A DNA stretch of 64,000 nucleotides from Amphiura filiformis (taxonomy: Eukaryota; Echinodermata; Ophiuroidea; Amphilepidida; Amphiuridae). The notes beneath the pieces are model-generated. The model was not told the origin of the DNA, searched no databases, and worked only from the letters and a program-made list of their open reading frames with translations. The stretch lies in contig NC_092639.1 in the NCBI RefSeq assembly GCF_039555335.1, forward strand, positions 35,321,293 to 35,385,292. Reading direction: 5' to 3'. Both the position numbers and the translations under genes were made by a program. This document shows, in pieces, positions 3,901-64,000 of the stretch (within the stretch, counting starts at the first letter, position 1; each line of letters begins with the position of its first letter).

Positions 3901-4585
3901 AAACCAGTTTTTTGAACACCCCTCCAACTCTTCATTAAAAGTTGATATTTTTGAAATTTAACAATCCTCAAAGTAAATTGTATAAATCTAATGTAATGAT
4001 ATGTATATACTTAAAAAGTGTATGTAGCTGGGATCAATTGAAAATTTTGACCTTTCATAGATATAGGCTTTTCCTAAAAACATGAAAAAATCATTACGTC
4101 TTTTTACAAAAAAATTGAGAAAATTTTGACAAATTACCCATGCATATACAAGGGATTGCATATGCCTATACCAAAATTGGTTTAGAAAAAGGGGTCATTG
4201 ACATGCGCGTATGCAGGAATTTCTACAGGGGGTGTGATGATAAAAAAACTATCAAAATAAAGAAATGACCGCGCGACGCAAGGGGGTGTCTGAGGGGGGA
4301 TGTACCCCCCTCCGAATTTAGAAACTTTTGCAAAATGAAGACCTTATTGAAGCGATTTGGTGGACAATTTTGGCACTATTACTTTAGTGTGTAAACTTTT
4401 AATTTGAAAAAGCTGAAAATTTGTGAAATGATGGTCCATGTAGCCTTTCGTGAACAAGTTTTCCCTACAGTTGTAGGCCTATTGTGTTAAACACAAATTG
4501 GTAAATGTCAAAAGCAGAAGCCAAAATGGCTACTTGTTTATCCACTACACAGGGGGTGTCTGAGGGGGATGTGCCCCCCTGAGAA
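3901..4585. repeat. Intergenic DNA ending in repeat family R, copy 1
   Basis: The stretch 4332-4560 is one copy of a dispersed repeat that I call R. It is marked by GAAGCGATTTGGTGGAC, CCTTTCGTGAACAAG, GAAGCCAAAATGGCTACTTG and a GGGGGTGTCTGAGGGGGATG end. The last motif also appears alone at about 4265. The DNA before it (3901-4250) shows nothing recognisable. Confidence 0.6.
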
Positions 4586-5052: not shown

Positions 5053-5500
5053 TTACTTTTGCAAAATGAAGATCTCATTGAAGCGATTTGGAGGACCATT
5101 TTGGCACTATTAGCATGATTAGTGTGTACAAATTAGTTTGAAAAAAGCCGAAAATTTGTGAAATGACGGTTCATGAAGCCTTTCGTGAACAAGTCTTACT
5201 TAAAGTTGTAGGCCTATATATAAATTGTGTTACAAATTGGTAAATGTCGAAAGCAGAAGCCAAAATGGCTACTTATTTATCTACTACACAGAATGTCCCC
5301 CCCCCCTCAGAAACTTTGCAAAACGAAGACCTAATTGAGGCGATTTGGTGGACCATTTTGGCAATCGTAGTGTGTAAAATTTTAGTTTGAAAAAGCCAAA
5401 ATTGGTGAAATAACGGTCCATGAAGCCTTTCGTGAACAAGAGTTTTCCTCCTGCAGAAGTTGGAAAATTTTGCAAAATGAAGGTCCGATTGAAGCCATTT
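5053..5500. repeat. Repeat family R, copies 2 and 3
   Basis: Two further partial copies of the 4332-4560 repeat follow in the same orientation. The copy at 5053-5290 is full length. The one at about 5305-5500 lacks part of the middle. The nesting of R copies around the TTAA element suggests that element inserted into an R-rich region. Confidence 0.65.
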
Positions 5501-6300
5501 GGTGCATAATTTTTACACTATTTAAATCATTGCTTCAAACAGAAAAAAGGGCCCGAACTCAATTGCACAATACGTACGTACGTTGCCGGGGTAGGGGTGT
5601 GATGATATGGAGAGGTGTTGGTGTTAACATGTAGGCCCTATATCCATGTCAATTAACAATTAAATGGGGATGTGGGTGTGTGTGGGAGGGGTGTTAACAT
5701 AAATCTACATATTTACGTACGTTGCATGCCGGTCAGTCAATACCGGGTATAGGGGAGAGAAAAATTTGAGTGGGGGTAGTGAAGACATCTATAGGCCTAT
5801 GATAATTTGATATTATGTTCCCTATGCCATGCTCATCTCCCTCCTCTCCTCTTCCCTCCCTCTCTCTCTCTCTCTCTCCCTCTCTCTTTCTTTGCCTTTT
5901 CTCCCCCCATTTTTATTTTTTGGATAAACTCAAGGGGGGTGTTTCACACACGTAACACTCCCCCTGCGTACGCCAATGGTCATTGATATACCAACAGGTA
6001 GGGCCTATGGGTAAACCGTACATGGTAAATTTGTACCCCCACCCCCAACTCTATGAAATGACTGAACAGAGTCTGAGAAACATAGGCTATCTTCATTTGT
6101 GGTGGTGTTATTTTTAAAGACAGTTCTTGTTACTCTTATTGATCACAATGTCTGTTCAGTGGGTAGTTTTCTGGGGTCTGTACATGCACATTCTGACATT
6201 GACCTTTATCATGAGATGCAAGTAGACTGTATCTCAGGTCATTTTAAAAGCCTTGAGCAGAGGGGCATCATGCAGACCAGTAGTACATGTAGTGCAGCTC
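5501..6300. other. Intergenic DNA with CT microsatellite
   Basis: A CT/CCT-rich simple repeat lies at about 5838-5893. TAGGCCTA occurs at 5793, and the variants TAGGCCCTA and TAGGGCCTA at 5632 and 5999. No gene was recognised. Confidence 0.5.
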
Positions 6301-17689: not shown

Positions 17690-19758
17690 ATTGGCTAGCA
17701 ATCGATCGCTTAGGTCGCTCAGTAGTCAACTACAAACTCATGCATTCAATTCGATTGAAATCGATTATTCTATTATTGACGAAGATAAAGAGCGTGATAG
17801 TGTGTCAATAATGTACATTGTATTGCACCTGGCTTTACCAGCATTCCTTTATAAAATAATTTTCTCAAAGAGTTGAATATTATCAAAATTTTTACCCAGG
17901 ATTTCAAATTTTTACCCGCAAATTGCAGTTAAACATATCCACAGCAAAATACCGGTCCTCACTAATTAGTACATTTAATTTCCAGTTAGTACATTTAAAC
18001 GAAACCTGTGATTTACGTGACAACAAATAAAATTTTCTTACAATAGAAATATCATATGGGATACTGATATGGTAGGCCGCAACCGCCACTACGTGGAGCT
18101 GCTACGCGTAGCTGACTTTTTGTTCCGTGGAGCCAAATTGACCAATCATGTTAGAGTTTTTCATTACTCGGAGGTAAAACTGACCAATCAAGTACGACTT
18201 ACTCATTACGTGAAGCGAATTTAGTCATTAAGAATTTGCCAGACGAGCTTCACGTAGTTGCAAGATATCCTCGGTCACGATAGTTATGATTCAAAAAGTA
18301 GGCCTAATTTATGAAAAGTACGAACCGACTTATTATTAAGATGGACATGCACTCACAAGAAACTCATACAGTATTGTACACAACTATATAGCTAGGCAGA
18401 GTGGTGGTAAACCATGCACACAATTCAGGCTGATTTGTACATCTTATGCAGGCGTGGCCTCATGAATTCGACCTTCAGCAAACCAGTTCGGATTTACTTT
18501 ATATACTAGTAGTAGGCCATACATACTGTAGTTACGGTACTGCCCGCTTTTCCTATACACAATACTCAGTGCGCTCACCATTGACGCGTGACCTAGTGTA
18601 TGTTAGAAGTATTATGCCATTGCCTATATGACGTCACTGTGTAAAAAATAACCAGTCAATATTTAAAGTATTCTCTGAAATTCTAGAAAATATAGTTTTG
18701 TAACATTTCCTAAATTTTAGCTAATTTAGGTGTTTGGAAATATTGGTACTTTTGTGTTTTAGGAAGGATATGTAAACGACAGATAACACCAAAAAATATG
18801 AACAAATTATTTCTAAACCGTGTTAAGTCTGCAAACCATTATGCTTCTCATTTTCAAGAACGCTGGTTAACAATAAGCAGACTATTGTCTCATTTGGTAA
18901 ACAAAGGCAGAGTCAGTATTGTTACCTTCCGCTCGCTTTATAATCATTCACCCAACTGAAACTATAATACCAGCTCATTGTTCATTGCACAGGTAAAACA
19001 GACACAAGTGCAGTGTGTATTTAACCAGAGAAGATCTGATGTAACATAGTTGAGCTGTTTTGATTGAGTGTTATCTTGGTTTAATAGCTTTTAATGGGGT
19101 TTAAGTCCTTCAAAGGTCGTGGTGAATTCTACTGTAGACATGACTGCATCATGATTATTTTAAAGTCAACAACATTCAACATTATGATCACCGTGATAGT
19201 ATGACAGTATCAGTACCGTGGGTGTCAGTGATCCTGGCCTGACACAGTAGACAAACAAACAAACACGCCACACACATGGCACATGCATGCAAGGTAACAT
19301 TGACTATACACTAATCAAACAATGGTATTGATCCTGTACAACTGTTTGTGGTTTATTTACATTCAATTCATTTAAAATCCACATAGTAAACATTAATTTT
19401 GGCAAGAGTTTTCTCTCTCTGGAACGATGATGCATCAACTGGCTCCGCGTAATGAAAAGATCTAACATGATTGGTCAATTTAGCTCCGCGAAGCGAAAAG
19501 TAAGCTACGCGTAGCAGCTCCACATTGTGGCGGTTACGGCCAGCCATATACTGATCATGCGAAAATCGTAAAACATAGAATAGAAACAGTGTGGCGGCTC
19601 TCAAAATCTCAAATTGTATGCATAGCCTGAGTCGCACGGCCTATCTCGAACAAAATAGCTCAAAATCACCATGCGTAGTTGTTGAAAAACGTGAGGATTT
19701 ATCGTACTACCACGGCAATTTTTAACACGAAGATATAGGGATGATGACGGTGTGCTAG
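17690..19758. mobile_element. Repeat element interrupted by a 1.48-kb insertion
   Basis: Bases about 17740-18068 and 19548-19758 are together homologous to one continuous sequence at 32205-32790, for example the CGAAGATATAGGGATGATGAC end. The copy here is split by the element at 18069-19547. I could not define its outer termini. Confidence 0.6.
18069..19547. mobile_element. 1.48-kb TIR element with 8-bp target duplication
   Basis: Inverted repeats of about 115 bp start ATGGTAGGCCGCAACCGCC on the left and ATGGCTGGCCGTAACCGCC on the complement of the right, and share GTGGAGCTGCTACGCGTAGC. It is flanked by exact ATACTGAT copies at 18061-18068 and 19548-19555. The related sequence near 32600 (GGGATACTAGAGCATGCGC) lacks the insertion and acts as an empty site. 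The interior has only small frames, so it is non-autonomous. The superfamily is unclear: an 8-bp duplication allows hAT, P or Merlin. Confidence 0.85.
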
Positions 19759-26661: not shown

Positions 26662-26678
26662 TTTTCTATCTTGTACAG
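26662..26678 (+). promoter_or_regulatory. Splice acceptor before the zinc-finger exon
   Basis: The pyrimidine-rich TTTTTCTATCTTGTACAG stands six bases before the start codon. It suggests the coding exon is spliced to an untranslated first exon upstream, which I could not locate. Confidence 0.5.
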
Positions 26679-26683
26679 ATATA

Positions 26684-28351
26684 ATGGTAAACCGACCAAA
26701 ACGGCAGTGGGATTTACTGAATGATCCTGTTTGCAGGTATTGTAAGAGGAGGTTCATCAACAGCATCCCTCGTTATTTATCTCATCTTCGTCATCACAAG
26801 TTGACAATAACACCATACTGGTATAGCAATCCTCATTTACCACCCAAGGCAAGATGTGCTACTCTCCCAAGGAGGAAACAGAAGCCTGATCCGAGGACAA
26901 CTTGTGCTAAGAAAAACAAACCAAAAGATGATAAAACTCTAATGCAGGCAACCATGAAGAATACGCTTTTTCTACCAACCACAGAAAGAGATGTCCCGTT
27001 TAAAAAAGATGTGCTAAACAAAAAATGTAATGTGGAGAAAGGCAAACCAAGAGTGTGTGACACAAGCAAACCTTCTTCTTCCTCAGCAAATGTGACAATT
27101 AAAAGGCATATAATTAAGAACAAGAAATCAACATATGACAAATCTTTCAGTTATTGTGGAAATGTGGGTAAGCATGGTATGGTACATAAATGCAGCTACT
27201 GCAACAAGTCCTTCAGTGTCATTAGCAAAAGGAATCAACATGAAAAGATACATGCAGGAGAAAAACCTTATAAATGTAGCTACTGTAACAAGTGCTTCAG
27301 TGAAAATGGCACCAAGAATCAACATGAAAAGATACATAGAGGAGAAAAACCTTATAAATGTAGCTACTATAACAAGTCCTTCAGTCAAATGAGCACCAAG
27401 AATCAACATGAAAAGATACACACAGGAGAAAAACCTCATAAATGTAGCTACTGTAACAAGTCCTTCAGTCAAATGAGCGCCAAGAATCGACATGAAAAGA
27501 TACATACAGGAGAAAACCCTCATAAATGTAGCTACTGTAACAAGTCCTTCAGTCAAATGAGCAACAAGAATAAACATGAAAAGATACATACAGGAGAAAA
27601 ACCTTATAAATGTAGCTACTGTAACAAGTCCTTTAGTCAAATGGGTAACAAGAATCACCATGAAAAGATACATAGAGGAGAAAAACCTCATAAATGTAAC
27701 TACTGTAACAAGTCCTTCAGTCGAATGGGTGACAAGAATTGCCATGAAACGATGCATCGAGGAGAAACACCCTATACATGTAGCTACTGTAACAAGTCCT
27801 TCAGTCGAATGGGCAACAAGAATAAACATGAAAAGATACATCGAGGAGAAAAACCTTATAAATGTAGCTACTGTAACAAGTCCTTCAGTCAAACGAGCAA
27901 CAAGAATAAACATGAAAAGACACATACTGGAGAAAAACCTTATAAATGTAGCTACTGTAACAAGTCCTTCAGTGAAAATGGCATCAAAAATCGACACGAA
28001 AAGACACATACAGGAGAAAACCTTTATAAATGTAGCTACTGTAATAAATCCTTTAGTGAAATGGGTAACAGGAATCGCCATGAAAAGATACATAGAGGAG
28101 AAACCCAATCTAAATGTAGCTATTGCAACAAGTCCTTCAGTCAAATGAGCAACAAGAATCGACATGAAAAGACACATACAGGAGAAAAACCTTATACATG
28201 TAGCTACTGCAACAAGTCCTTCAGTCAAATGGGCCACAAGAATCACCATGAGAAGATACATACAGGAGAAAAACCTTATAAATGTAGCTACTGCAACAAG
28301 TCCTTCAGTCAAATGAGCAACAAGAATCGACATGAAAAGACACATACATGA
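26684..28351 (+). CDS. Tandem C2H2 zinc-finger protein, 14-finger array
   Basis: Likely a nuclear sequence-specific DNA-binding protein of unknown target. The frame encodes 555 residues. One isolated finger lies at residues 17-38 (C17, C20, H34, H38), followed by a basic, low-complexity linker. Fourteen adjacent 28-residue fingers start at residue 168, with consensus CSYCNKSFSQMSNKN-x-HEKIH and TGEKP or RGEKP linkers. Finger 3 has lost its second zinc cysteine (Tyr at about 229). There is no KRAB, BTB or SCAN domain. The units are nearly identical at DNA level, as expected for recent tandem duplication. Differences concentrate at helix positions -1, 2, 3 and 6, which contact DNA. A splice acceptor (TTTTCTATCTTGTACAG) ends at 26678, just before the ATG, so an upstream leader exon is likely. 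The final TGA arises by a G-to-T change in a linker Gly codon; see the next entry. Confidence 0.9.
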   Translation: MVNRPKRQWDLLNDPVCRYCKRRFINSIPRYLSHLRHHKLTITPYWYSNPHLPPKARCATLPRRKQKPDPRTTCAKKNKPKDDKTLMQATMKNTLFLPTTERDVPFKKDVLNKKCNVEKGKPRVCDTSKPSSSSANVTIKRHIIKNKKSTYDKSFSYCGNVGKHGMVHKCSYCNKSFSVISKRNQHEKIHAGEKPYKCSYCNKCFSENGTKNQHEKIHRGEKPYKCSYYNKSFSQMSTKNQHEKIHTGEKPHKCSYCNKSFSQMSAKNRHEKIHTGENPHKCSYCNKSFSQMSNKNKHEKIHTGEKPYKCSYCNKSFSQMGNKNHHEKIHRGEKPHKCNYCNKSFSRMGDKNCHETMHRGETPYTCSYCNKSFSRMGNKNKHEKIHRGEKPYKCSYCNKSFSQTSNKNKHEKTHTGEKPYKCSYCNKSFSENGIKNRHEKTHTGENLYKCSYCNKSFSEMGNRNRHEKIHRGETQSKCSYCNKSFSQMSNKNRHEKTHTGEKPYTCSYCNKSFSQMGHKNHHEKIHTGEKPYKCSYCNKSFSQMSNKNRHEKTHT

Positions 28352-28697
28352 GAAAACCCTTATACATGTAGCTACTGTAACAAGTCCTTCAGTTATATGA
28401 GCACCAAGAATCGACATGAAAAGATACAAAGAGGAGAAAAACCTTATAAATGTAGCTACTGTAACAAGTCCTTTAGTCAAATGGACAAAAAGAATAAACA
28501 TGAAAATATGCATCGAGGAGAAAAACCTTATAAATGTAGCTACTGTAACAGGTCTTTAGTCAAATGTGCAACAACAATAAACATGAAAAGATACATACAG
28601 AAGAAACCCAATATAAATGTATAGCTACTGCAACAAGTCCTTCAGTGAAAGGGGCAGCAAGAATCGACATGAAAAGATACACAGAGGAGAAAAACCT
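28352..28697 (+). pseudogene. Broken tail of the zinc-finger array
   Basis: The finger repeat continues for about four units beyond the stop codon. The frame stays open through two of them. The first has its last zinc histidine changed to Gln (EKIQRGEKP). The second is intact (QMDKKNKHENMH). The third is broken by a one-base deletion in the SFS codons (about 28553) and the fourth by a two-base insertion (TGTATAGCTAC, about 28620). The ancestral gene therefore encoded about 18 fingers. Alternatively this is a 3' UTR made of dead fingers. Confidence 0.85.
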
Positions 28698-30150
28698 TTA
28701 TTTATTTCTTTGTTTGTTACTTTATTTATTTCTTCATTGTGTGGATGGGTCTGAGAAGGTGTCCCGGAAGGTGTGTGTCCTAGGCCTATTATTTATTTTC
28801 AGTTTGTTATTTCATTTTGTTTGTTGAAAACAAACTATGAGAAGGACATTTGGAAACAAAAAACTTTTGTACAAAAAATATTATTTAAAACAATGACTTA
28901 GGTTACAGAAAACAATTCTTTTAAAGTCACTGCATCTGAAAATGTCAAGCGAGTGCTGATATTCTTGGGAAGGAATGATGATATTAAACAAAACTCAATT
29001 TATGTTGTATCGATGAAACCAGTTGAAGTAAGAACGAAATCCATAATTTTAATGTCATTGTTTGGGAAAAAATAATGCTCAGAATAATGTTATGCATAAA
29101 ACATAATCGTGCATGCCTCAGGGAGCTTTATCTAATTTCGTGCAACAAAGCAACAAAAACCGGTGGACCATCAGGCGGTGGTGTTGGATTTACAGTTATG
29201 TTAAAGTTAATTCTAAATAACCCTTTAACTACAACTCAGAAAATGCAACTCTAACTCCAACTCGAATTTGAAAAAAGTATAAACTCAGAAGAAGTTCTAG
29301 ACTACTGTTCACTCTTCTAAGAAAATGATAGGCCTATAGTAGCCTTTATAGCATAGGTACACATTTATTTCTTTAAACAAAATGGTAGACTTTAGTGTGC
29401 ATTTTTTTTTATAAAACTTGTCATTTCCTGGGATCACTCCATGGAATAACAATTATTGTATCATAAGGTGATGAAAAAATACATGTAAATAACACACCTG
29501 TTCTACAGGAGGATGGACTTTTCAAGTAGGGTCAGTTGAGAGTTTTTTAGGTGGGGTGGGGCTAAAAGAAGTTTGAAAAATCAGGAAAAATCAAGTGATT
29601 CTTCGCACACATATTTTGAAAATGTTCTGATTGTTCCCAAATATTTTCAGTCAAAAATCAATCAATTTTGGCCAAAAGAAAAATCCTAAAAGGCAAAACC
29701 TGAGTTGGTCAGTCCCGTAAAACATGCAGGTGTTTTTGTCGCCTAATGAGAAGATTTCTTATGTAGTACCATTTCATAGATTAAAAACTATATAGCTTCT
29801 TTGGTCACAAAAGTGTCTCATCTTTTTTTATTTGTGTTTTAAATGTATGCTGTGTGTGTCAAAAACATGGATAAAACAGCATAACCAAGTTTATAGTGTG
29901 CATTGGACTTGGGGGTGGATCAGAATGATCGACCCTTGGAAATTATCTTGTTGGGATAGGTGGAAGATATGAAACATCATCCACTGAGTTATATTATATC
30001 AGACCTTATGTATCCCCTGTCCCCTCTAACTGGGACAAACCTCTCTGACTTTTGCCCCTTCTAAACTACCAGTTGCATCTGATCATTAATACCCAAAAGG
30101 ACGACATGAATTGACATCAGTGAATAGATTCATCAGGTTTGTACATCAAA
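28698..30150. other. Intergenic or 3' UTR DNA
   Basis: Downstream of the finger array the DNA is AT-rich with no further coding signal. TAGGCCTA occurs at 28781 and 29329. Confidence 0.45.
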
Positions 30151-30406
30151 TCAATTTAGTAATTTTGCTTGCCAAAACCAGTAAGTTTTTACTTACTAAT
30201 ATTTCGTCCATCTTGTCGGGGGACTTCATCAGATGTGAGCATCTGATCCACTTTCCCGGGAAACTGGAAGTAAGACTACTCACAACCGGAAGCCAGTTTC
30301 CCGGGAAAGCGGATCAGATGCTCACATCTGATGAAGTCCTCCGACGAGATGGACAAAATATTAGTAAGTAAAAACTTACTTGTTTTGGCAAGCAAAATTA
30401 CTAATT
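30151..30406. mobile_element. Foldback element with ~115-bp arms
   Basis: The arms run 30151-30267 and 30293-30406, are nearly perfect complements and are separated by a 25-base spacer. The ends read TAGTAATTTTGCTTGCC on both strands and abut TA. The arm also contains a smaller palindrome (CATCAGATGTGAGCATCTGATC). Transcription would give a long stable hairpin. Confidence 0.8.
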
Positions 30407-31113: not shown

Positions 31114-31789
31114 AAATAACATAAATGTAGCAAGATATAAGTTGAAAGATCTATAATTTGATTCAGGTGGTGGCCGCATTGCATTCCCTAAATTCAGTAA
31201 ATTTTCATCGTCAACCGTGTAATTGAATGGGATTATTTTGAAATTTTAAAACGCTTGAAATATCACAAAGAAATAGGCCTATGTTGATAAATAATATAAA
31301 TACACAAGCTAAAATCGTTGGGGTTCGATAATGAACCCCACAAAACTAACCGACTAAATTGGAAAATGCCATACGGCCGGGCGGTTTCACAAGTTGCCGG
31401 CTCGATCATGTCATCCGCCGCCTGATTTGATTGGCATTGGATGATCCCAACTTATCACCTTGCAAAATGATGAAACCATGCCAACATTATTTTCCTGAGG
31501 ATAGGAAGTTAGGACTACATGTAATATATAGTGTGGATTGCAGCCTTCTGTGCCAGGTAAATACATATCCCTCCTTCCTATCGATGATAGCTTTCAATGA
31601 CATTACAAACTTACAGATGTGCATTTTCTTGTGAACTTAAATCATGACACCACTTCACGTATGTTTGAGGAAATAAGAGTTTTCCCTTCCCTCTAGCACA
31701 AAAGTGCAAATGGTATGTGCATATTGACATTCTGAGAAATCCAATGTGTATGGTCCATTTGGCTTCTTCTAGACAGTGACATCAGTGCG
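31114..31789. other. Intergenic DNA
   Basis: No gene or repeat that I can support. TAGGCCTA occurs at 31274. Confidence 0.4.
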
Positions 31790-39402: not shown

Positions 39403-39589
39403 TTAAATTGCACGTAATTGAGTAGGTCCATGCCTAAAAAACGCACAGTCAGGACGATTGGAAGTAGGCCCTATTATAGGCCTGCAATTATTTTAGGCAT
39501 TGCTTGAAGGCGGTTCCTCGTACCAAAATCATGTGAAAATTACTGCGGGCCCACCGATATGCAGAGCCTATCACATTTTGTCACCAAAG

Positions 39590-39890
39590 TCACTAGACGA
39601 CAATAATAGGGAAAACTTGTCCACGAAAGGCTTCATGGACGAGCCGTTATTCACAAATTTCCGGCTGTTTCAATGTTACCCTACAGGACACTAACATAGT
39701 GCCAAAACGGTCCACCAAATCGCTTCAATTAGGTCTTCATTTTGCAAAATTTTCCAACTTCTCAGGGAGCAGGGGGGGGGATATCCCCCGGAATATCCCC
39801 CTTACACACATTAACAAGTGTCCATTTTCGCTTCCGCTTTCAACATTTGCCAATTTATATTTAAAACAATTGATAGGCCTACAACAATAG
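39590..39890 (-). repeat. Repeat family R, minus orientation
   Basis: Reverse complement of the 4332-4560 repeat: CTTGTCCACGAAAGGCTTCA, CCAAATCGCTTCAATTAGG and GTGTCCATTTTCGCTTCCGC are diagnostic. TAGGCCTA occurs at 39874, at the same place as in the copy at 4474. Confidence 0.65.
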
Positions 39891-41039
39891 GGAAACTTAG
39901 TACAAGGAACTTATACACAAACTTATTCACAAACTGATACTATCTGTCCATCGTATAAGACTGTTACCGTACGGCAGCGTGTTAAAGGAATATTACAGAG
40001 TCAAGAATAGGCTCCATCATTTTTTTATTCGGATCCCTCACAGTCTCCCAAAAGATAAAAAATCAAGCGTTGCACGTATACCAGGGCCGTGACACTCGTA
40101 TTCAATCCCTGTATAAAAAGTGAAGTCACTTCGCCGGCAGTTTGATTGACATTGATTGATTTGGTTGCTATGCCGGTTGCTATGCAATCCAGTGCGCAGC
40201 CTAAAATTTACGCACTTGTGCACGTATTTAATTTGGCGACGCCAAAGGAACTTATCCTGTATTGCATTGACAGCTTTCGTCAATGATTGACAGGTCTTGA
40301 ACATTTCAGTCGCGCAAATTAGTCTTAGTTCCAGACGTGCAAGTACACATACGATTGTAACGCAATTTGAAAGTACGTTTATTTGTTTTAGGAAAGAAAT
40401 ACCCTTTTCATTACATTTTGTGTTAGTAGAGAGAAAATTAGACGCATTCGTTACTTGTTTTAATGATTTTCGAGCTAATTTTATGTACGAAATATGCATA
40501 TTTAGACCGCTACAGTACAAACGACAGTCTGTCTTGTTCAAGTCTAACATCGTCAGGCTAAAATCTCCTCAATCTTGAACGACTGTCGAGGAAGTCTATT
40601 TCAAGCTATTTTTCCAAGATGGCGCCCATCTACTGCCAATTATTCGGACCCTTTCCGGCAAAAATACAGCTTATTTAGCCAGTCTCGTCATGGGGTCATC
40701 GAACAGAATATTTTTCTAGCATATTGAGGTAACTCTTTCAATAGCTACTTGGTTTTTCAAAATATGATAGTAGGCCCTAATGGAAAGAAACAACCAATTG
40801 TTCGCCGTTTTTCGCCATTTCATTTTTTTTTAAACGATGACGTAAACATGCATCATCTCTTCCACAGAAAATACACTCCTACATCGCATACAGGGGTACA
40901 GCAATGCCATCACATGCATGATCGTGCATTGGCTGTGTGACTGACTTCATTTGCGCAAACGAGTGGCTTATCCTAGTACTCGAGAATCCTTGACGTATAT
41001 ACTTACTTTAGACTGTCCTTTTTCCATAAATGCAGACAA
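39891..41039. other. Intergenic DNA with an unsupported 170-codon frame
   Basis: A minus-strand open frame spans 40038-40550, and an overlapping plus-strand frame spans 40297-40578. Neither resembles a known family and both lack splice context. CAAGATGGCGCC at about 40615 resembles a YY1-type promoter motif, so a transcription start is possible here, but nothing else supports a gene. Confidence 0.35.
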
Positions 41040-41947: not shown

Positions 41948-43029
41948 CCCCGGGGGTGCCAGTTGAACCGTCAATGAAGTCATCACCGACCAAAATTTCG
42001 CGGTAAAAGGGTATCTTTTTAAGCATAGGCCACGTCCCGCGCGGGACGCGAAAAGGGTCTCAATTTTGGTGTTTTCTGGAAAAAAGGGTACCTTTTTTTA
42101 CAATAGATATGTCGGCGTTTTGGGTTAATGAAAAATCAAAGTCCAGCATTTGACGTCAGCCGCTGTTTTCGTTCCTGATTGTAAACAACTTCTTACTTCC
42201 GGGTCTGTAAGTGTAATATATTAGTCTTGTGCCCGGTCTTGTACCATGATTAAAACTCGGTGATGTTTGTGCATGCTGCCGAGCGGGCTGCGTAGAGACG
42301 GGCGTAGAGACTACGAATTTTGTACAAGGTACAGATACTGTGTAATCGGAATGGATTACGACATACGTTTGACTGCTGAACCAGATATGACAGGAACCAT
42401 GCCTTTTGGAAATCGTGAAGTGACATTTGCCATCGCTGTTTGTCACCCGCGCAAAACCGAAGTTAAACGGGGAAAAAGTGCTTTATAGGCCTATTTCAGA
42501 TTTCAGAGCTTAGCGCGGATCATGGATTCGGCCCGGGATTCAGCACTGAAATCAAAGGTAAATAGCTACGCTTATTAAGAAAATGCAATTACGTTTTTCA
42601 TCGCTTTTGCTGATGTTTCTTGCTTTCTACTCCCGGGTTTCTACTTCCGATTGTGTGCCGCGGGTTGTGTACCATTCAAAAACACACCAGTCCAGAGGGT
42701 GCAAAATTCGGCACACACATGACCAATTGATAAGCTTAAAGTTGGTAAGCTTCACTGCTTAGACGATGTAAAGGGATTGGAAATACACTAGGTAAATATT
42801 GCTTTCTACCTTCGTCAGTGAAAAGGGTCATTGGGACATGTAAGGTCAGTGATATGGGTACCTTTGTTTGCACCATGGCTGTGGTCAGTGATTTGGGTAT
42901 CCTTTTTTCATAGCAGGTCAGTGGTAAGGGTTACCTTTCAGCCCTTGGGCATGTCAGTGTTTTGGGTGAAAAATAAAAGTGTCTGGTCAGTGATGACAAC
43001 ATGCAATGGTATATGAGTGGCACCCCCGG
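41948..43029. mobile_element. 1.1-kb TIR element with 8-bp duplication
   Basis: The left end CCCCGGGGGTGCCAG matches the complement of the right end CCGGGGGTGCCAC. GATAAAAC flanks both sides (41940-41947 and 43030-43037). Subterminal GTCATCAC.GACCA is shared by both arms. At 42825-42990 the right arm has a degenerate tandem GGTCAGTGATTTGGGTACC. A 73-codon frame at 42267-42488 is not recognisable. Non-autonomous. Confidence 0.8.
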
Positions 43030-43488
43030 GATAAAACCTCTTCAGTATGCTCAGTTTGAATACACTTTTTCAATTCCGGGACTTCCAGCTAGAGTGAACA
43101 CTGCATTTTCATAGCAAAATCACAAGTTCATTTACTTCTCTTTGAGTTCTCTCTGTCGGATGTCGGTCGGACCAGACCTTCTGAGTCCAAAATTAAAAAC
43201 CCCGTCAAATAGCCACAACATAGCGATAAGGGACCGTTCACAAACACTTGTTCGGGGGGGGGGGGGGGCTGATGCAAAATGGGGCCCTTAAAAGTTTTGA
43301 CCCTCCTAAGGGAGGGCCCTGAAAAATTGAACACAACCTTTCCCTGGAAAAATGAGTTTATATGTTTTTCTATGGGGTTGACCCATAATTTTTATGTCCA
43401 AAAAAGAGGGGGTGGGAGCTGAAATATTTGAGATCTGAAAAGGAACGGCCCGAACATTTTGAAATTTTTTGCATCAGGCCCCCCTAAC

Positions 43489-44029
43489 CAGGGGCGTAGC
43501 AAGCGGGGGACAGGGTGGACGAAGTCCATGGGCCCCGAGGCTTCAGGGGCCCCCGAGCACAAAAGCGAAAATTAAATAAGGGCTGATAATGGAGAGCAGG
43601 CCCGGATTTACCATTGGGCCAGATGGGCCCGGGTCCAGGACAGCCAAAATTTGGGGGCCCCAAAAACTGCCCTATGCATCATTCTTTTAACCACAATAAC
43701 AGCAAATTTTCCGCGCTTTGCGCGCATTCAAATAGCAAAATTTATGTTGATCTGGAGCTAAAATAGTCTGAAAATTAGTTTTTCGCGTGTTTTGCGCGCA
43801 AATGTCCTAGTAGGCCTAACATCGGAACAAAATATGTTAGCCCCATCTATATTATACGTAAACCAAAACTGATTTGGGTGCACATGTCTTCCTCGGCACG
43901 TGAGTTCGGGGCCTCCAAGTTTTGGCCTGGCCCAGGGCCCCATAAGGTAAATCCCGCCCTGGTTAAAAAGGCCCGTAGGCCTACTGCTCCTTGTCCATGG
44001 GCCCCTCGGATGCTCTTGCTACGCCCTTG
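43489..44029. mobile_element. hAT-like element (level 2)
   Basis: The left end CAGGGGCGTAGCAA matches the complement of the right end CAAGGGCGTAGCAA. It is flanked by exact CCCCTAAC at 43481-43488 and 44030-44037, duplicating the right terminus of the host. It is itself split by the element at 43597-43961. Confidence 0.9.
43597..43961. mobile_element. Inverted-repeat element (level 3)
   Basis: The left end CAGGCCCGGATTTACC matches the complement of the right end CAGGGCGGGATTTACC, with GGGCC-rich sequence following in both arms. No flanking duplication survives. The interior is AT-rich, with a GCGCGC-containing segment. Non-coding. Confidence 0.7.
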
Positions 44030-44253
44030 CCCCTAACAAGTGTTTGTGAACGGACCCTAAGTGGCTAGTCGGCTGAAGCAAAATCTGACCTGACCAGTGA
44101 CCAATCAGACTGATTGTTTTGTGTCACATTGGGGATCCCTGGGGAAGGATCCATGGGGAAGGATCACCTTTAGGCTATATTTGCAAAAAGTCAATCGCTC
44201 GCCACTAGGCCTAGGGCCTATAGGTATTTCATAATAAATGCAAATTTCTATTA

Positions 44254-44548
44254 GGGGGCTATCATTTCTTCAGAAAGGGGGTGGGGTCCCAAATTTTCCA
44301 AAAGTCGGCGTCAATAATGAAATTGCGACCCCCCTATTTCGGCAAAAGAGTTGTATGTATGACCCCACCCCACCCCACCCCCACATTCTTTTTGGATGCA
44401 ACACACTATCTATCAGGTCATCTTGTGACTCCCTACATTCTGGTCATCAAAATTTTATGAGCCCCTCCCCCCTATTTTTGTTTCCAAAATGTATGACCCC
44501 TCTCCGCTTATTTGGGACCCCCCCCTTCCGAAGAAAAATAATAGCCCC
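44254..44548. mobile_element. MITE with GGGGCTATCATTTCTTC ends
   Basis: The left end GGGGGCTATCATTTCTTCAG matches the complement of the right end GGGGCTATTATTTTTCTTCG. TA lies on both sides. A second copy (59371-59601) shares ends and interior (GATAGATAGTGTG on one strand). Confidence 0.75.
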
Positions 44549-44564
44549 TAAAGTACACTTACGT

Positions 44565-45250
44565 TACAAGCAATGCTGTCCAGTGCTGATAGTGGCATTG
44601 ATCATTAATGACAAACAATGCTGTCTAGTCTCTACTGCTGATAGTGGCAAGGATGACTTACAAGCAATGTTGTCTTCTGCAGATAGGCCTAGTGGCATTG
44701 TCTACCGCTGATAGTGGCATTGATGACCTACAAGTAGGGCCTAGGCCTAATTCTGTCTACTGCTGATAGTGGCATTGATGACTTACCAGCAATGCTGTCT
44801 AGCCACTGCTGATAGGCCTACTGGCATTGGTGACTTGCAAGTACCGTAATGCTGTTTATGCTGGTAGTGGCATTGATGACATAAGCAATGCTGTCTAGGC
44901 CTACTTCTAATAGTGGCATTGATAACTTACCAGCAGTGCTGTCTACTGCTGATAGTGGCATTGATGACTCACCAGCAATGCTATCTACTGCTGAGTGCTG
45001 ATAGTGGCATTGATGACTTACCAACAATGCTGTCTTCTGTAGATAGTAGCATTGAAGTACCAACAATGCTGTCTATTGCTGAGAGTGGCATTGATGACTC
45101 ACCAGCAATGCTATCTACTGCTGATAGTGGCATTGATGACTTACCAACAATGCTGTCTTCTGTAGATAGTAGCACTGAAGTACCAACAATGCTGTCTATT
45201 GCTGAGAGTGGCATTGATATGATGAAGTTATCAGCAATGCTGTCTTCTGC
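44565..45250. repeat. Minisatellite, ~42-45 bp unit
   Basis: About 15 units with core GTCTACTGCTGATAGTGGCATTGATGACTTACCAGCAATGCT (key words GATAGTGGCATTGATGAC and AGCAATGCTGTCTACTG). Several units carry an extra GGCCTA after TA (44684, 44813, 44896). Unit lengths are often multiples of three, so frames stay open on both strands; I regard these as by-products. Confidence 0.85.
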
Positions 45251-45254
45251 AGAT

Positions 45255-45687
45255 CAGTGGTGTATCGTGGCCGCTCCTACCCCGCGGGGCTAAAGAATAT
45301 GTAAATTTTGCCGCCCCTAACAGCAATAGCCCGAAAAGGTTAACCCAATTTTTTTAGAGGTGCTGTAGTTTTGTTAAAATCCCGAGTTTTTGAATAAAAT
45401 GCAGGAACCGTCATTTAATTATTACGATGGAAATATTAGTCCAACAGGTACGCGATGTTCATAACACAGTACGTACATGGCGTGCGGGACATCAAAGGAT
45501 CGTGCTGTAGCATAACCAACGGATTGACATTTAATGGCGACATTAGCGCTGCTAGTAAATTCAAATTTTCTTTGCTTTACCTCAGTTGTTCGGCTCAAAA
45601 TTAAAAGGGGACATCAGTAGAAGCTAATATTTTATGGAGAAGAAATACTAATCTATTTTTTATGAAAATGTTACAACATGGCTTTAA
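45255..45687 (-). mobile_element. GGGGCGGC repeat fragment joined to truncated TTAA element
   Basis: Bases 45255-45345 start CAGTGGTGTATCGTGGCCGC and are the inverse of the 25519 border. They are joined at about 45350 to an inverted, truncated copy of the TTAA element, whose end AATGTTACAACATGGCT is followed by TTAA at 45684-45687. Confidence 0.65.
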
Positions 45688-46412
45688 CCATTTTTTGTCC
45701 AAATGTAGATGCTATTTTGACTGCATTTAACATAAACGAGTTTTTCCATGTCAAACTAACAGCATAGCCTATTTACCAAACATAATGATTGGATACAATA
45801 CCCTGTGGTATATGATGGAAGGCACTGCAATACTTTGACCTCTTTATTGCAACCAGCTTGTCCCTAAGCTGTGATAGGTGCAATTTTTTTTCAATTAAAA
45901 AGCGCTAGCTCATAAATTAGTCAGTCGGGTGTCATCGAGGTGTTGTTCAATCATATGATTACTTATATATTTATATACTTATATAGTTTACACCATACAC
46001 AGTTTAATAAGATCATCAGTTTATGAGAAAATGTTTTTTAAATAAGTCAGATGCTTGGACAAAAAAATCGCTTTTGCCAATAATAAATGCGGGCCATTTT
46101 TTGACAAAAGTTCCCTTTTTGTGTATGTACCTGTCGTTTTGCGGCCATATTTATACATTTACATTTCTTTAATCACCTTTTTTGGGTAGTTAAGTTTTCA
46201 AGCCACACAGGCACTGGGCTCTCACTTTCTGAGCACACCACTGAAATTCATTTTAAAAGGTCTTATTTCTTAATTTTCTTTGCTGATTTTGTTTTTTTGG
46301 CAGATAGTTTCTACTTTTGTGTAATTTGTGTATAATTTATATATTTTAAAATGACAAGTGAATTATAACAAGCCGAGAAAAAAAAATTATGGGAAGTGAA
46401 AAAAGAGGTAAG
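45688..46412. other. Intergenic AT-rich DNA
   Basis: No gene or element recognised. Confidence 0.4.
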
Positions 46413-46842
46413 GCCAAAAAAAAGGGTTTGTTTCCTGTAGCTGGTCAAAAAAGTCAAATGTGAAATGCGATTTTTTATTTTTATTTTCATTTTTTGAATC
46501 CATTTTCTTCAAATGACAAAAATACCGTTTTTTGCTGCAAATTGGAATGGGAATTTACAGTGGGTCTCTCCGACACACCCAAAAAATCATATTCAAGAAA
46601 AAAAAGACTAAAAAAGATATTAAAAAAATTGTGTGTTTTCTCCAGTAGTTTTTCACTATGCTCGTTTGTTGTGTAATGTGTAAATGTTTACTCTAGTAGT
46701 GTTTTGTATTATTTTTTGTGATTTTCCGTTTTTTTGTTGTTGTTTTTTCTTTGAAAAGTGAAAAAAAAATCTAATGCGCAAAATAATCCATCAAAAACGT
46801 AATGCATGTGCTACAGGAAACAAACTTGGTTTTTTTTAGCCA
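46413..46842. repeat. Inverted repeat with ~30-bp arms
   Basis: GTTTGTTTCCTGTAGC at about 46427 and GCTACAGGAAACAAAC at about 46812 are exact inverses, extended by A- or T-rich sequence toward the edges. This may be a MITE, but I see no target duplication. Confidence 0.5.
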
Positions 46843-48416
46843 AAAACAAATATTGAGCGTGCAAACAAAGGGAGATAGTAAACCTTTTTCCCTTTTTTGA
46901 CCTACATGTACGAATACATTCAAATATAGAGTAAGTGATGGGCAGTTCCATGCAAAAGGTTGGACATGAAGTCAACTTCAAACTTGTTCCAACACTTATC
47001 CCGTAACCTCAATTTACAAAACTAGCAAAATATTGACATGGCCTAGTTTTGGGCACTGAAAATCTGAAAAATCATGGTGGCCAGCATCACAAGATTTTCC
47101 ATGGGGCGGGGCAGCTGCAGTCAAAGGACATGTTAATGACAGTATTCAGTAAAACTGAAATTTTATGTAATACCACGCAAGTATATATGGTAAGAAGCAT
47201 TGAAGACATAACAGAATATACAGAACTTCAGCAACCAGGAGGCGCAAATTTCTTGGTGAGCTAAGAAAGGATGTAAATATAACATATTGACGCTTAATGG
47301 TCAATGGTTATAAATTTGGAACAATTTGCTCGAAGCGCACCTAAATTTGCTTTTTTAAAAGCTGACATGGTCAAATATGAGATTAATTTCGTCAAAATCA
47401 CATGCAACATGCGTTTCACTTTCTTTTTCTCCAATTTCTCTTCTTTATTTTATTTTTTATATGGGTGGGGGCTTGTTTAACAAGGGTTGTATATGCTACT
47501 GCATAATACATAATGCAACAGCATCAAAAGTCACTGATCAATAGTCTTATCCTGAAGTCAAAATTCAGGCACATATTATAAAATAAATTGATAATCTTTT
47601 GATAATCACTGAAATTACCACTTAATTGGAAAATAATTTGGATGAAAAAAAAGATGGTGATTTAATATTTAGTTTGTATCAAAAAAATCATTTGATCATA
47701 TTGCAATATTATTACAAAATAGTGAGTATAAAAGGAAATCCAAAGGTCTTTGCAATGGGTGAACATCACTTACTAATGTATTTGTATCTGAAAATAGAAC
47801 AGGGGTTATAAATAGAAAGAAAAGCTTTTAAAAAGCCTGTTTTGAAATACTACCTATAGCCTACAATGTATACCTTGAATTGAATGAAGTACAACTAATA
47901 AATCAGGCAGTGAAAATTATTTATTGAATTTATTGAAATAAAGGAATAAATCAGGCAGTGAAAATTATTTATTTTATTTTAATTTTATAAGAAGCTGCAA
48001 CTTCATTAAACCAAATGTCATGATTATACTAAGCATGCCAAGATAAGATTAAGGAGTATTATGTGTATTATTCCAAACACCATATTTATATACATTATTT
48101 AGTATATGATAAATCTTATGTTCAATGCCATATTTTATTTACATTATGTTATGTAGATGTACATCAAAGTCCATTACTAGATATACAATCTGTGTAGCGT
48201 TATTATTAATAGGATTTAAAATTAATTGGAAAGGATTGTATTATTTTATATTAACATGTATTATAGGATTAATCATAATTTTGATCAGTAATCAGTAAGG
48301 TAGAATTTTAATTTGTAATATTAGCTCACATCTGCTGTGATTAATATCTGAAGTCATAAACCAAATAATATTAGGCTACCAGTATTATGAGTCGATGGAC
48401 ATGCACATATATGGGG
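46843..48416. other. Intergenic AT-rich DNA
   Basis: A 48-bp direct tandem duplication starting AATAAATCAGGCAGTGAA lies at 47897 and 47945. Nothing else was recognised. Confidence 0.4.
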
Positions 48417-48420
48417 GGCA

Positions 48421-48540
48421 GTGGCAGCACCAGGCTTTTGGGGGGGGTAGGGGCAAAGTGAATTTGCAAAATTGGCGCAAAAGGTGGAAATTTACATCAT
48501 TCAGGGTTTTTGGCACAAAAGTGGGAGGGGGCAAATTTAA
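48421..48540. repeat. hAT-like MITE fragment
   Basis: CAGTGGCAGCACCAGG, GGGGCAAAGTGAATTTGC and GGAAATTTACATCATTCAGG parallel the left part of the element at 61880-62067. No right end was found. Confidence 0.55.
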
Positions 48541-48775
48541 CTGACTATACAGTAATATATAGGGTGGTCCCGCTATGTGGTCCACCAAAAATGTAATGTT
48601 ACCCTGGTCCACATTTTGTGACACTTTGGAAGACTTAAGACTTGCTGAATAACAACAGGTAATGCCATGGATTGATGTTGAAGTCAATGTTGAGTTCATC
48701 TGAATGGCTTTGGTTGGTAACACAACTTCACAGGCTCTGCGGGGCTGCAGAGTAGCGTATCAGAGGGCCCAACTT
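48541..48775. other. Intergenic DNA
   Basis: Short non-coding stretch before the minisatellite. Confidence 0.4.
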
Positions 48776-49195
48776 ACAATGCTATCAACAGTAGATAGCA
48801 AATACCTATAATGCTATCAATAGATAGCAAATACCTACAATGCTATCAACAGTTGCTAGCAAAATACATACAATGCTATCAGTAGTAAATAGCAAATACC
48901 TACAATGCTATAAGTAGTAGATAGCAAATACCTACAATGCTATCAACAGTAGATAGCAAATACCTACAATACTATCAGTAGTAGATAGCAAATACCTACA
49001 ATGCTATCAGTAGATAGCAAATACCTACAATGCTATCAGCAGTAGATAGCAAATACCTACAATGCTATAAGTAGTAGATAGCAAATACCTACAATGCTAT
49101 CAGTAGATAGCAAATACCTACAATGCTATCAGCAGTAGATAGCAAATACCTACAATGCTAGGCCTATCAGTAGTAGATAGCAAATACCTATAGGC
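48776..49195. repeat. Minisatellite, ~29-36 bp unit
   Basis: About 13 units of the type ACCTACAATGCTATCAG followed by TAGTAGATAGCAAAT. One unit at 49159 carries the extra GGCCTA insertion. On the complement the unit shares GCTATCTACT and GATAGCATTG with the 44565-45250 minisatellite, so the two may have a common origin. Confidence 0.85.
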
Positions 49196-53420: not shown

Positions 53421-53639
53421 CAGTGTTCGAATTAAGGAAAAATAAATGGTTGTCCCACGGACAACCAGATTACAATTTCTGGTTGTCCGACTCAAGTTTT
53501 TGGTTGTCTGTAGGCCTACAATGGTGACAAAGGCTACAGATTTATGGTTGTCCAGTGGACAACCGAATCAGTATTCTTGGTTGTCCGGCGACTTTTTTAG
53601 TTGTCCCGTGCGAACGGACAACCAAAATTTCGAACGCTG
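53421..53639. mobile_element. hAT-like MITE with 8-bp duplication and empty site
   Basis: The left end CAGTGTTCGAATTAAGG matches the complement of the right end CAGCGTTCGAAATTTTGG. CTAATTAG flanks both sides (53413-53420, 53640-53647) and occurs once in copy 1 at 52114-52121. The interior has repeated GGTTGTCCG and GACAACC motifs in both orientations. Confidence 0.95.
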
Positions 53640-53782
53640 CTAATTAGGTACACCCTGTTTGTGATATAATGAATGCATTGACATGGCACTAATTCCAGTT
53701 TCATACAAAGTGATTGAACAATACACATCTCTCACAGCAGGTAGTAAATCTGTTGTTATTTTTTGACAATTATTATTATATA

Positions 53783-54436
53783 CTGCGCCAATAAAGTATC
53801 CTTACATTTGGAAAAATAATCACAATTTCCAAACAGAACAATATTGGGGTAAATTTGTTTTTTAATAGATGCACTATCTAATTCTGCACATTATGACACC
53901 ACATTGAATCCAATGTGATTTCAAGAAGCAAAGTTACAAGCATTTGATTAGACGAAGGTCCAGTTTTAAAAGTGACAAACGGGCCTATTCAAAACTCCAC
54001 AGACTAGACATCTGGTTTGAGAGTGGTGAATGGCTAATTTATGCGTTTGGCTTTAATTTAAAACAACAGGAACAAAAGAAAACTGAAACAAAAGAACTGA
54101 CAAATAAAATGAAAGTTATGAAAAGTACAGAGAAGTAAAAACTGAAATAAAAACTGCTTTAAATAACGCTTCATTGAAGAAACTGTGTTGTCTCTTTGTT
54201 GCGCTTGTTGGAATCTTTTTGCGCCGTGTATAGGCCATTTTGTCACTTTTAAAACTGGACCTTCGTCTATTCAATTGCTTGTAACTTTACTTCTGGAGGT
54301 CACATTGGATTCAATGTGGTGTCATAATGTGCAGGATTAGTTAGTGCATCTATTACAAAAACAAATTTACCCCAATATTGCTCAGTTTTGAAATTGTGAT
54401 TATTTTTCCAAATGTAAGGATACTTTATTGGCGCAG
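53783..54436. mobile_element. TA-flanked foldback MITE, ~200-bp arms
   Basis: The ends CTGCGCCAATAAAGTATCC are inverted, and the arms remain complementary for about 200 bp (to TTTTAAAAGTGACAAA). TA lies on both sides, and copy 1 (near 52253) lacks the element. This is a Tc1/mariner-type non-autonomous element (inference from TA and structure). Confidence 0.9.
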
Positions 54437-54591
54437 TATATCATTCCATTGAAACCAATATAACAAGCTCAATCCTATGCAATGATCATGTCTACATTTT
54501 ACAATTGAACTATGTATCCAGCCTAGCTTGCTGTGTACATGTAGTATAGATCAAGGTCTATATAGTGACTACCATGTTAAACTAGAATTAC

Positions 54592-58671: not shown

Positions 58672-58945
58672 GGGACCGTTCACAAATACTTGTAAGGAGG
58701 GCCTGATGCAAAAAAAATTCATCGCGAAAATTTTTCGGGCCCCCCTTTACAGACCTCATAAATTTCAGGGCCCCCCTTTTTGACATGAAAATTATGGGTC
58801 AACCCCATAGAAAAGCATATAAACTCAATTTTCCCAGGAAAATTTGTGGTCATTTTTTTCAGGCCCATCCCCCTTAGGAGGGTCAAAATTTTTCAGGGCC
58901 CCCTTTTTGCATCAGGCCCCCTAACAAGTGTTTGTAAACGGTCCC
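58672..58945. mobile_element. GGGACCG MITE, intact copy
   Basis: The ends GGGACCGTTCACAAATACTT and, on the complement, GGGACCGTTTACAAACACTT are flanked by TAA on both sides (58669-58671, 58946-58948). The arms stay complementary through GCCTGATGCAAAAA. This is the uninterrupted reference for 43230-44057. PIF/Harbinger-type is inferred. Confidence 0.85.
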
Positions 58946-59262: not shown

Positions 59263-59745
59263 TGTGACCCTTTACAGTGAAAAGCATCTTAGGGGCAATA
59301 TTTTGGAAATGGAGATAGACAAAACATTAAATGTTAATTTGGCAGACAGTGACATAAATTTTAAGCTTCAAGGGGGGGGGCTGGCATTTTCTTCGGAAGG
59401 GGTGGGACCCAAATATACTGGGGGAGGGGGTCATAAATTTTGATGACCTAAATATAGGGAGTCACAAGATGACCAAAGATAGATAGTGTGTTTATTGTAT
59501 TCAAAAAGACTGATTTCAATACAATTTTAGCCTGTTTAAGGTGTATTGGTGGTGGGGGTAATAAAATTTGGGACCTTTTCCGAAGAAAATGCCAGCCCCC
59601 TTAGATGCTATCATCCTGGTTTCCATATTGGTTCCACTGTGAAGATATGAAGAAAAGACAAGTGAATTGTCTTATAATTTACTTTATATTTTGAACATAA
59701 AATCATCAATATCTCAGAACAAATCTTTTTGCTGTGGGGGTCACA
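59263..59745. mobile_element. TGTGAC-family MITE with nested element
   Basis: TGTGACCC ends face each other with TA on both sides (59261, 59746). The arms are only moderately similar. A 231-bp element with GGGGGCTGGCATTTTCTTCG ends sits inside. Confidence 0.6.
59371..59601. mobile_element. Nested MITE, second copy of the 44254 family
   Basis: The left CTGGCATTTTCTTCGGAAGG and the complement of the right CTGGCATTTTCTTCGGAAAAG are inverted repeats after a G run. The interior shares GATGACC...AGATAGATAGTGTG with 44254-44548. Confidence 0.75.
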
Positions 59746-63186: not shown

Positions 63187-64000
63187 TCATGCATATCTCT
63201 GGTTCTGGTTCGGATTGAACCTCTTCTGTATACCTCTTTTCCTCAATTGACCTCTCCGAGGAATGTTTGTTCCAAACTGTTTCCTTCTCAACTCCTCGGT
63301 ATAAAGAACTTCCGGTTTGACCATACGCTCACATACAGGATTCGCTTTGGCTTCCTCTTTCAGTATAAACCCATTTATTTTTACCCCTCGTGGTTCCCAT
63401 ACATCAAAATCTGCATCGCCGTTTAAGGCATGGTCTGACTGCACACAGTTTTTATAATATCTATTGGTGAGCTTGTGTAACTTATCAACTTCTGCCGCCA
63501 TCTTGTCTCTTCCGTACCTTGCAATTTTCTGCCACAATGTTTGGTTGAAATGCTTGTAGAGCATCACATCGCCTTTGTTCCAGTCTCTGATTCGTTCTCG
63601 ATCCTGCTCGGATAATTTTGTCACAGAGTTTTCATTGCGTGCATTTAATCTAAACACGACTACGTCTTCTAGTGTCCAGCACAGAAGATCCTTTAGTAAA
63701 ATAAGTGATTCTTCAAAGTGTTCTCCTATTATAATCAGACTGAATTTCTCGCTGATTTCATCAATTGCACTTTGCAGTTTTGCCTCATCATTGAATGTTT
63801 CTGCAGGTATGCCATAGTCATAGAGCATATTGTTACGTGTATGCACCGTATTTCTCATTGACTTTGAGTACTTCTCTGGATTAGATAAAAAAATACTTAA
63901 TGCTTGGGGATTATCCACTTTACCCATCCGGTAATCAATTTTGAAATAGGTGAATGCACTTTCAAACACATCTACTGGATCCCGCACGATGCTGATGTAC
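63187..64000 (-). CDS. Galactose-3-O-sulfotransferase-like protein, C-terminal part
   Basis: Members of this family transfer sulfate from PAPS to the 3-OH of galactose on glycolipids or glycoproteins in the Golgi lumen. The frame is open from the window edge and ends with TGA at 63187-63189, giving about 271 residues. The first visible stretch, YISIVRDPVDVFESAFTYF, fits the RDPV...S motif that binds the 3'-phosphate of PAPS. Further family-like segments are LCWTLEDVVVFRLNAR and WNKGDVMLYKHFNQTLW. The C-terminus is basic (RRGQLRKRGIQKRF). The N-terminal membrane anchor and the 5'-phosphosulfate-binding loop lie outside the window, so the true start is not visible; the first ATG-like codon here is not a start. 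A single long last coding exon fits vertebrate homologues. I assign the family with good confidence, but not the exact member or substrate. Confidence 0.85.
   Translation of the reverse strand, partial: YISIVRDPVDVFESAFTYFKIDYRMGKVDNPQALSIFLSNPEKYSKSMRNTVHTRNNMLYDYGIPAETFNDEAKLQSAIDEISEKFSLIIIGEHFEESLILLKDLLCWTLEDVVVFRLNARNENSVTKLSEQDRERIRDWNKGDVMLYKHFNQTLWQKIARYGRDKMAAEVDKLHKLTNRYYKNCVQSDHALNGDADFDVWEPRGVKINGFILKEEAKANPVCERMVKPEVLYTEELRRKQFGTNIPRRGQLRKRGIQKRFNPNQNQRYA

Follow-up and report, generated by a model that had tools for sequence, protein, structure and literature searches.

Tc1/mariner transposons, in the parts of the published accounts compared here, leave 2- or 3-base 3' overhangs together with a duplication of the TA target (PMC3878927), and their scars consist of the overhang bases held between two TAs (PMC3878927, PMC8151067, PMC7913693), with scars of 2–4 bp being reported (PMC7913693). 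The subject of this report is an octamer of similar build, TAGGCCTA, in which GGCC stands between two TAs. It recurs in a single stretch of 64,000 nucleotides from Amphiura filiformis (contig NC_092639.1, positions 35,321,293 to 35,385,292), which is referred to as the window and supplies all positions below; the strand entry of every listed octamer feature is “.”. As in the footprints of Sleeping Beauty, Frog Prince and ZB, so far as these sources describe them (PMC3878927, PMC7913693, PMC8151067), a TA target is duplicated and a few bases lie between the two TAs. In contrast to those footprints, which are mostly 2–3 bp long (e.g., C(A/T)GTA for Sleeping Beauty), the putative scar of the window is a uniform and self-complementary 4-bp GGCC with one uncertain source. 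Its length remains within the published range of 2–4 bp (PMC7913693), which six five-base variants exceed.

Two systems of a different kind also invite comparison, again on the portions of the sources at hand. The GC clusters of yeast mitochondria share with the octamer a G+C-rich palindrome, a putative short target duplication and the merging of units, but the active yeast cluster is 42 nucleotides long, mitochondrial and directed to AG, whereas the window has a 6-bp insert at TA (PMC4478555). HIP1 of cyanobacteria is likewise an exact palindromic octamer of high frequency, but it reads GCGATCGC, is bacterial and is discussed in connection with methyltransferases, and the portion of that account compared here mentions no TA insertion (PMC4390886).

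Count, exactness and TA frame of the octamer

The original prediction had given 18 exact copies of TAGGCCTA in 64 kb, where about one is expected, and the recount agrees, with 18 copies against 0.76 in 100 dinucleotide shuffles (largest 3) and against 0.72 under an order-3 Markov model (largest 2 in 60 simulations). All of the predicted coordinates stood except 5793 and 42485, which are really 5792 and 42486. When 14 stretches of tandem or simple repeat were masked as arrays, 13 copies remained against 0.66 expected. Among the 15 commonest palindromic octamers of the masked window, the largest deviation was that of TAGGCCTA, followed by TACATGTA (14 versus 2.58) and CCCCGGGG (7 versus 0.78). 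The masking also disposed of GTAGCTAC, which seemed enriched with 14 copies and fell to 0 once arrays were removed.

The 24 one-mismatch neighbours of TAGGCCTA total 14 on the + strand, compared with about 15.9 expected from summed order-3 Markov means, and are thus at background, meaning that the excess is that of the exact string. Under a simple Poisson model, a mean divergence of more than about 4% among decaying copies would exceed the neighbour count seen, at the one-sided 5% level. Since five of the 18 copies sit in tandem arrays and three in one dispersed repeat, the window holds at most about 16 independent events.

The six five-base variants, all present at the positions originally given, alter the number of G or C alone, with three copies each of TAGGGCCTA and TAGGCCCTA. 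The dependence on a TA frame was assessed, with arrays and long hairpins set aside, on all X-Nk-X' words in five frames (k = 2 to 6), taking the best five per cell. At k = 4, the top two TA-framed words were TAGGCCTA (13 versus 0.68, P 5e-13) and TACATGTA (14 versus 2.47, P 4e-7), with the best P among the AT-, CA-, AA- and GC-framed words being 1.9e-6. The TAGGCCCTA/TAGGGCCTA pair reached P 4e-5 at k = 5, and the leaders at k = 6 were TAATTAATTA (P 6e-6) and TAGGCCTATA, which is the octamer itself. Other frames also produced outliers, namely ATGTCAAT (P 1.9e-6), GCGTAGC (P 2.1e-6) and GCGCAGCGC (P 6e-5), and for this reason the five-base pair is unconvincing by itself, whereas the octamer stands well clear. 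Strong enrichment is restricted to the order G-then-C, as the reverse order TACCGGTA gives 2 versus 0.35 outside arrays. Related TA-framed words outside arrays were TA-GG-C-TA (7 versus 2.4), TA-G-CC-TA (3 versus 2.4) and TA-GGG-CCC-TA (0 versus 0.06).

The flanks of the octamer were inspected as well. Immediately 5' of the leading TA stand A in seven, G in six and C in five of the 18 copies and T in none, so a TTA target never occurs at octamers. The base 3' of the outer TA is A in few half-sites (3 of 36, with P between 0.0017 and 0.016 depending on the background), an exploratory figure from one of eight positions inspected in copies that are not all independent.

The second enriched TA-framed palindrome, TACATGTA, lies at 17 places within 6284–62650, the one at 53217 having a shorter paralogue that a tandem duplication of CATGTA explains equally well. 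Tc1 of Caenorhabditis elegans has CA...TG ends and leaves the scars TACATA or TATGTA. Ends of this type, if both overhangs were filled, would yield TACATGTA, and the Tc1 pattern could thereby tie this word to the same overhang chemistry as TAGGCCTA. The Tc1-type words themselves show no excess in the window (TACATA 29 versus 31.7, TATGTA 31 versus 31.0).

Insertions recorded in two minisatellites

The earlier state of the sequence can be read in two minisatellites, where neighbouring units retain the site before the event. Each octamer site was collapsed to TA and compared with the window, a match being 4 or fewer mismatches in 20, and the best three matches per site were inspected. The minisatellite at 44561..45260 has units of about 42 bp and keeps the earlier state for GATA/GGCCTA/GTGG at 44684..44691 (13 collapsed-site matches), GATA/GGCCTA/CTGG at 44813..44820 (10 matches) and GTCTA/GGCCTA/CT at 44896..44903 (6 matches), with a single TA in the best three matches in every case. 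The minisatellite at 48775..49190 consists of 13 mostly 29/32-bp units, and one of these, the last, carries the insertion GCTA/GGCCTA/TCAG at 49159..49166, for which there are 12 matches, the best three having a single TA and 1 mismatch in 20. In these four array units, what was inserted at a TA is GGCC followed by another TA.

A double insertion, TA-GGGCC-TA-GGCC-TA, is found at 44735..44749 in the first array. Its nearest paralogues differ by 4 mismatches and carry CA rather than TA where the insert begins, and the TA may have been created by a C to T change before insertion. The duplicated TA target is therefore documented by single-TA matching sites for four of the five array copies and by CA-bearing ones for the fifth. 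The three array alignments of the original prediction (44684, 44896 and 49159) proved correct, with 44813 and the double site now joining them, and the paralogous TA-only sites on which it had made its case depend exist in the arrays for those four copies. Across both minisatellites, the five octamers fall at different positions of the unit. As a control, only 2 of 16 other TA-N4-TA words in arrays had any collapsed-site match.

The 42-bp minisatellite has further extra TA-framed bases, TA-CCG-TA and TA-GTCTC-TA, at 44832–44858 and 44624–44640, and these look like scars of other content. The first, TA-CCG-TA, sits where a different unit of the array carries the double insert. The units at 44565–45260 (+) are also partly open in one frame, repeating a MLSTADSGIDDLP-like peptide.

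The other 13 copies probably arose as insertions too, although the earlier state is readable in the five array copies only. They are found at 4474..4481, 5209..5216, 5792..5799, 18299..18306, 28781..28788, 29329..29336, 31274..31281, 39874..39881, 42486..42493, 43811..43818, 43976..43983 and 53511..53518, with the last of the 13 at 44206..44220 in two abutting units that have a common TA (TA-GGCC-TA-GGGCC-TA). Of the five-base variants, TAGGCCCTA lies at 5632..5640, 39465..39473 and 40771..40779, and TAGGGCCTA at 5999..6007.

Seven of the 18 octamers form a cluster of 1.1 kb that begins with the copy at 43811 and ends at 44903, an arrangement reached by none of 20,000 uniform random placements, although this figure is indicative only, as the interval was chosen post hoc and some array copies are perhaps related. 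The density of TA is not raised in the cluster (68 versus 75 per kb).

Three of the non-array copies belong to one dispersed repeat, with copy 1 at 4324–4552, copy 2 at 5055–5291 and copy 3, inverted, at 39810–39895. Their octamers (4474, 5209 and 39874) are intact and in equal place, despite identities of 84% and 80%, with one alignment at 70%. In one repeat copy, the sequence at 5106–5125 reads TTA-GCATGA-TTA against one TTA in the paralogue and may be a TTA-target scar.

Proposed excision scars, a candidate source and rival explanations

We consider it marginally probable that the TAGGCCTA copies are scars left at TA sites by the excision of a departed, TA-targeting cut-and-paste transposon of the Tc1/mariner-like kind. 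Such an element would insert at TA and duplicate it; on departure, the cut would fall a few bases inside the element ends, and the rejoined flanks would keep those bases. By one route, ends starting with GG, as in the element at 44252..44550, would contribute two bases from each side to give TA-GG-CC-TA, and an uneven contribution of two and three bases would give TAGGGCCTA or TAGGCCCTA. By another, a self-complementary four-base overhang GGCC would re-anneal without trimming, which accounts best for the uniformity of the octamer but has no source in the window. Every scar would leave two TAs open to new hits, and the nested form TA-GGCC-TA-GGGCC-TA could arise in this way; nested or merged units are present at 44206 and 44735. 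On this reading, a transposase would have made the breaks, the overhangs would have behaved as outlined, and the 13 copies outside arrays would share the origin of the array copies.

The candidate source is an element resembling a miniature inverted-repeat transposable element (MITE), TA-GGGGGCTAT...ATAGCCCC-TA, at 44252..44550 with the flanking TAs included. The original prediction had noted a small TA-flanked element with GGGGG ends near 44254, and it is indeed there. When TA-bounded inverted repeats were sought without gaps (15 or more matches in 18 bp, within 1.5 kb, low-complexity ends dropped), a design that misses repeats with an indel, 46 pairs emerged, and neither of the two starting with GG is convincing: the repeat of the pair at 37401 extends beyond its TA, and the pair at 19756 has the ends TAGGCTAAAGCC/TAGTCTAAAGCC. 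Of 742 TAGG...CCTA pairs of 60–1200 bp, a comparison that allowed gaps passed one alone, 44252–44550, with the ends TAGGGGGCTATCATTTCTTC/TAGGGGCTATTATTTTTCTTC. This element (TA-GGGGG...CCCC-TA) has the octamers at 44206 and 44684 on either side and hence lies inside the seven-octamer cluster. Some DNA transposons prefer nearby sites, according to the part of the source compared (PMC3878927), and the position of the sole TAGG...CCTA element within the cluster, together with this preference, favours the scar reading. The element or its kin may be the source.

An element with GGCC ends was not seen within the 64-kb window. Three pairs of TAGGCC...GGCCTA lie within 1.5 kb of one another, the closest being 14969–14992, TA-GGCC-CCTTGCCATTTT-GGCC-TA, which may be coincidental. 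MITEs with GGGACCGTTCAC ends occur at 58672–58945, about 23446–23708 and about 43230–43490, and at 44057 there is an end only, in the form GGGTCCGTTCAC. From their TTA/TAA target, these are presumably Harbinger-like. The octamer resembles the TTA/TAA-flanked MITEs of the window in that G-rich ends lie beside TA-containing targets, but differs from PIF/Harbinger scars, in which TTA or TAA is duplicated, as T precedes none of the 18 octamers.

A number of findings weigh against excision scars of this origin. Outside arrays, 2 of 13 octamers had collapsed-site matches compared with 15 of 40 control words sampled from 418, and since control words match as well, the empty-site test is without power there. 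The three intact octamers in diverged repeat copies fit poorly with purely recent scars. With 1 of 742, TAGG ends form such pairs no more often than do seven other TA-NN end classes (0.0010 to 0.0047). A diverged relative of the candidate element at about 59376–59604, with the inner part of the repeats in common, adjoins CAA at one end and TTA at the opposite end and lacks a clean TA, which leaves TA duplication in the family uncertain, and the GGGACCGTTCAC-ended MITEs adjoin TTA or TAA and not TA alone. Half-sites outside the octamer, TAGGCC (14) and GGCCTA (11), total 25, and 19 once the five-base variants are set aside, as against about 21 expected. Annealed two-base scars show no excess outside arrays (TAGGTA 11 versus 11.2, TACCTA 8 versus 10.7), which means that the route from GG-starting ends needs both overhangs to be filled, and TAGGGCCCTA, with 0 copies outside arrays, has no excess either. 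No Pfam transposase domain was detected in six frames of 1–14999 and 29001–64000 and two of six frames of 15001–29997, nor in ten open reading frames (ORFs) of the window; the read-through scan did detect a sulfotransferase exon, so that a well-conserved exon, at least, is within its reach. In ordinary families, elements outnumber scars, whereas here one candidate faces 18 scars. Finally, published scars are mostly 2–3 bp and come from annealed overhangs, with no palindrome of both ends in the parts of the accounts compared (PMC3878927, PMC7913693, PMC8151067). For Tc1/mariner-type excision, as first proposed, support is partial: the insertion of GGCC(TA) at TA and the one TA-GG...CC-TA element in the cluster favour it, but TAGG ends are no commoner than others, the relative is without clean TA flanks and the proposed search for a TAGG...CCTA element with a transposase, as run in the window, yielded one gapped pair of 742 and no such domain in the frames scanned.

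The single candidate element and the lack of a transposase in those frames would suit a micro-insertion process that needs no mobile element, an account that we regard as unlikely but deserving of serious weight. A host nuclease, a topoisomerase or a domesticated transposase would make a two-base stagger at TA. To this may be added, no less tentatively, a tailing or telomerase-like polymerase that places two (sometimes three) G's on both 3' ends, with filling and joining then producing TA-GG-CC-TA. It is possible, at a likelihood well short of even, that the window records a standing and fairly recent sequence-specific process that adds GGCC, or at times GGGCC or GGCCC, at TA and duplicates the TA without a parent element, and this may be the work of a domesticated TA-cutting transposase or of a break-and-tail repair route. 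The sharp exactness of the octamer is in keeping with such a process, and independent end-tailing predicts variants with more or fewer G or C and no other change, as observed (2+2 in 18 cases, 2+3 or 3+2 in six). Runs of four G's or four C's are nevertheless absent in the TA frame outside arrays, and the telomere-type extension TTAGGGTTAGGG does not occur at all; telomerase-like tailing is retained only as a part of this rival. The one-sided products TAGGTA and TACCTA, as given above, are not in excess, the excess of TACATGTA would require a separate cause, and we know of no process of break-and-tail micro-insertion in animal germlines.

It is much less credible that the octamer is itself a minimal mobile element, a palindrome propagated by copying as a nuclear analogue of the mitochondrial G+C-rich clusters of yeast. 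A G+C palindrome in A+T-rich DNA, a short duplicated target and merged units (44206, 44735) all recall those clusters as the source describes them, but they share neither the length, the compartment nor the AG target nucleotides already mentioned (PMC4478555). Moreover, four to five bases would seem to hold little information for recognition and copying. Similarly improbable is a protein-binding site that selection has maintained or multiplied: palindromes are common among binding sites and the octamer is intact in the three diverged copies of one repeat, but a true site would usually tolerate some change, which the background count of one-mismatch octamers (14 versus about 15.9) does not reflect, and the derived insertions inside minisatellite units also speak against it. 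The least probable explanation, to which we attach hardly any weight, is that the count stems from base composition, from a family of tandem repeats or from faulty assembly. Five of the 18 copies do lie in tandem arrays and three in one dispersed repeat; yet 13 copies against 0.66 survive array masking, the array copies hold differing unit positions, and GTAGCTAC, going from 14 to 0 on masking, provides the contrast.

Neighbouring features and wider meaning

The window also contains a C2H2 zinc-finger gene at 26642–28700 (+) with an array of 84-bp fingers. Its ORF had 7,888 protein matches, which among the matches listed were mostly vertebrate zinc-finger proteins, while protein searches with residues 1–175 and with another ORF of the window gave no match. 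The sulfotransferase exon belongs to a galactose-3-O-sulfotransferase, at 63277–63999 (-) (Pfam PF06990, E 1.6e-61). Together with the C2H2 array, this exon marks the sequence as most likely animal. Long inverted repeats at 53775–54444 and 30156–30404, with 146-nucleotide arms of 88%, 88-nucleotide arms of 95% and 112-nucleotide arms of 96% identity, are probably fold-back elements. No Rfam families or tRNAs were found in the window, and a window repeat had no match in viral or prokaryote contigs. A triple-octamer pattern does occur elsewhere, in 11 viral and 28 prokaryote stretches, and has no bearing on the window. Of these 39, 15 have four or more octamers and most of the 15 are tandem repeats, with L007, L010 and L029 being at least partly of another nature; at 4561–4793 of L007, a viral contig of 69.5 kb, seven TAGGCCTA copies lie within about 230 bases and form no simple tandem array.

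No description of such a TA-site octamer was found among the entries listed in searches of an open-access collection without bioRxiv preprints and most subscription papers. If the copies are scars, then the octamer would be a countable record of transposition that outlives the element, and a genome-wide count combined with polymorphism would measure excision. The palindromic, uniform form would in that case point to a repair route outside those in the parts of the published Tc1/mariner accounts compared here. If they are not scars, the copies would reflect a mutational process whose target and product are both defined. To our knowledge, standard indel models include no process of this kind. 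At the density of the window, a parent-free process would amount to one insertion per 3 to 4 kb. Every TAGGCCTA copy contains AGGCCT, a StuI site, and 6-bp insertions at such a density would bear on indel calling, on restriction-based markers and on the change of simple arrays.

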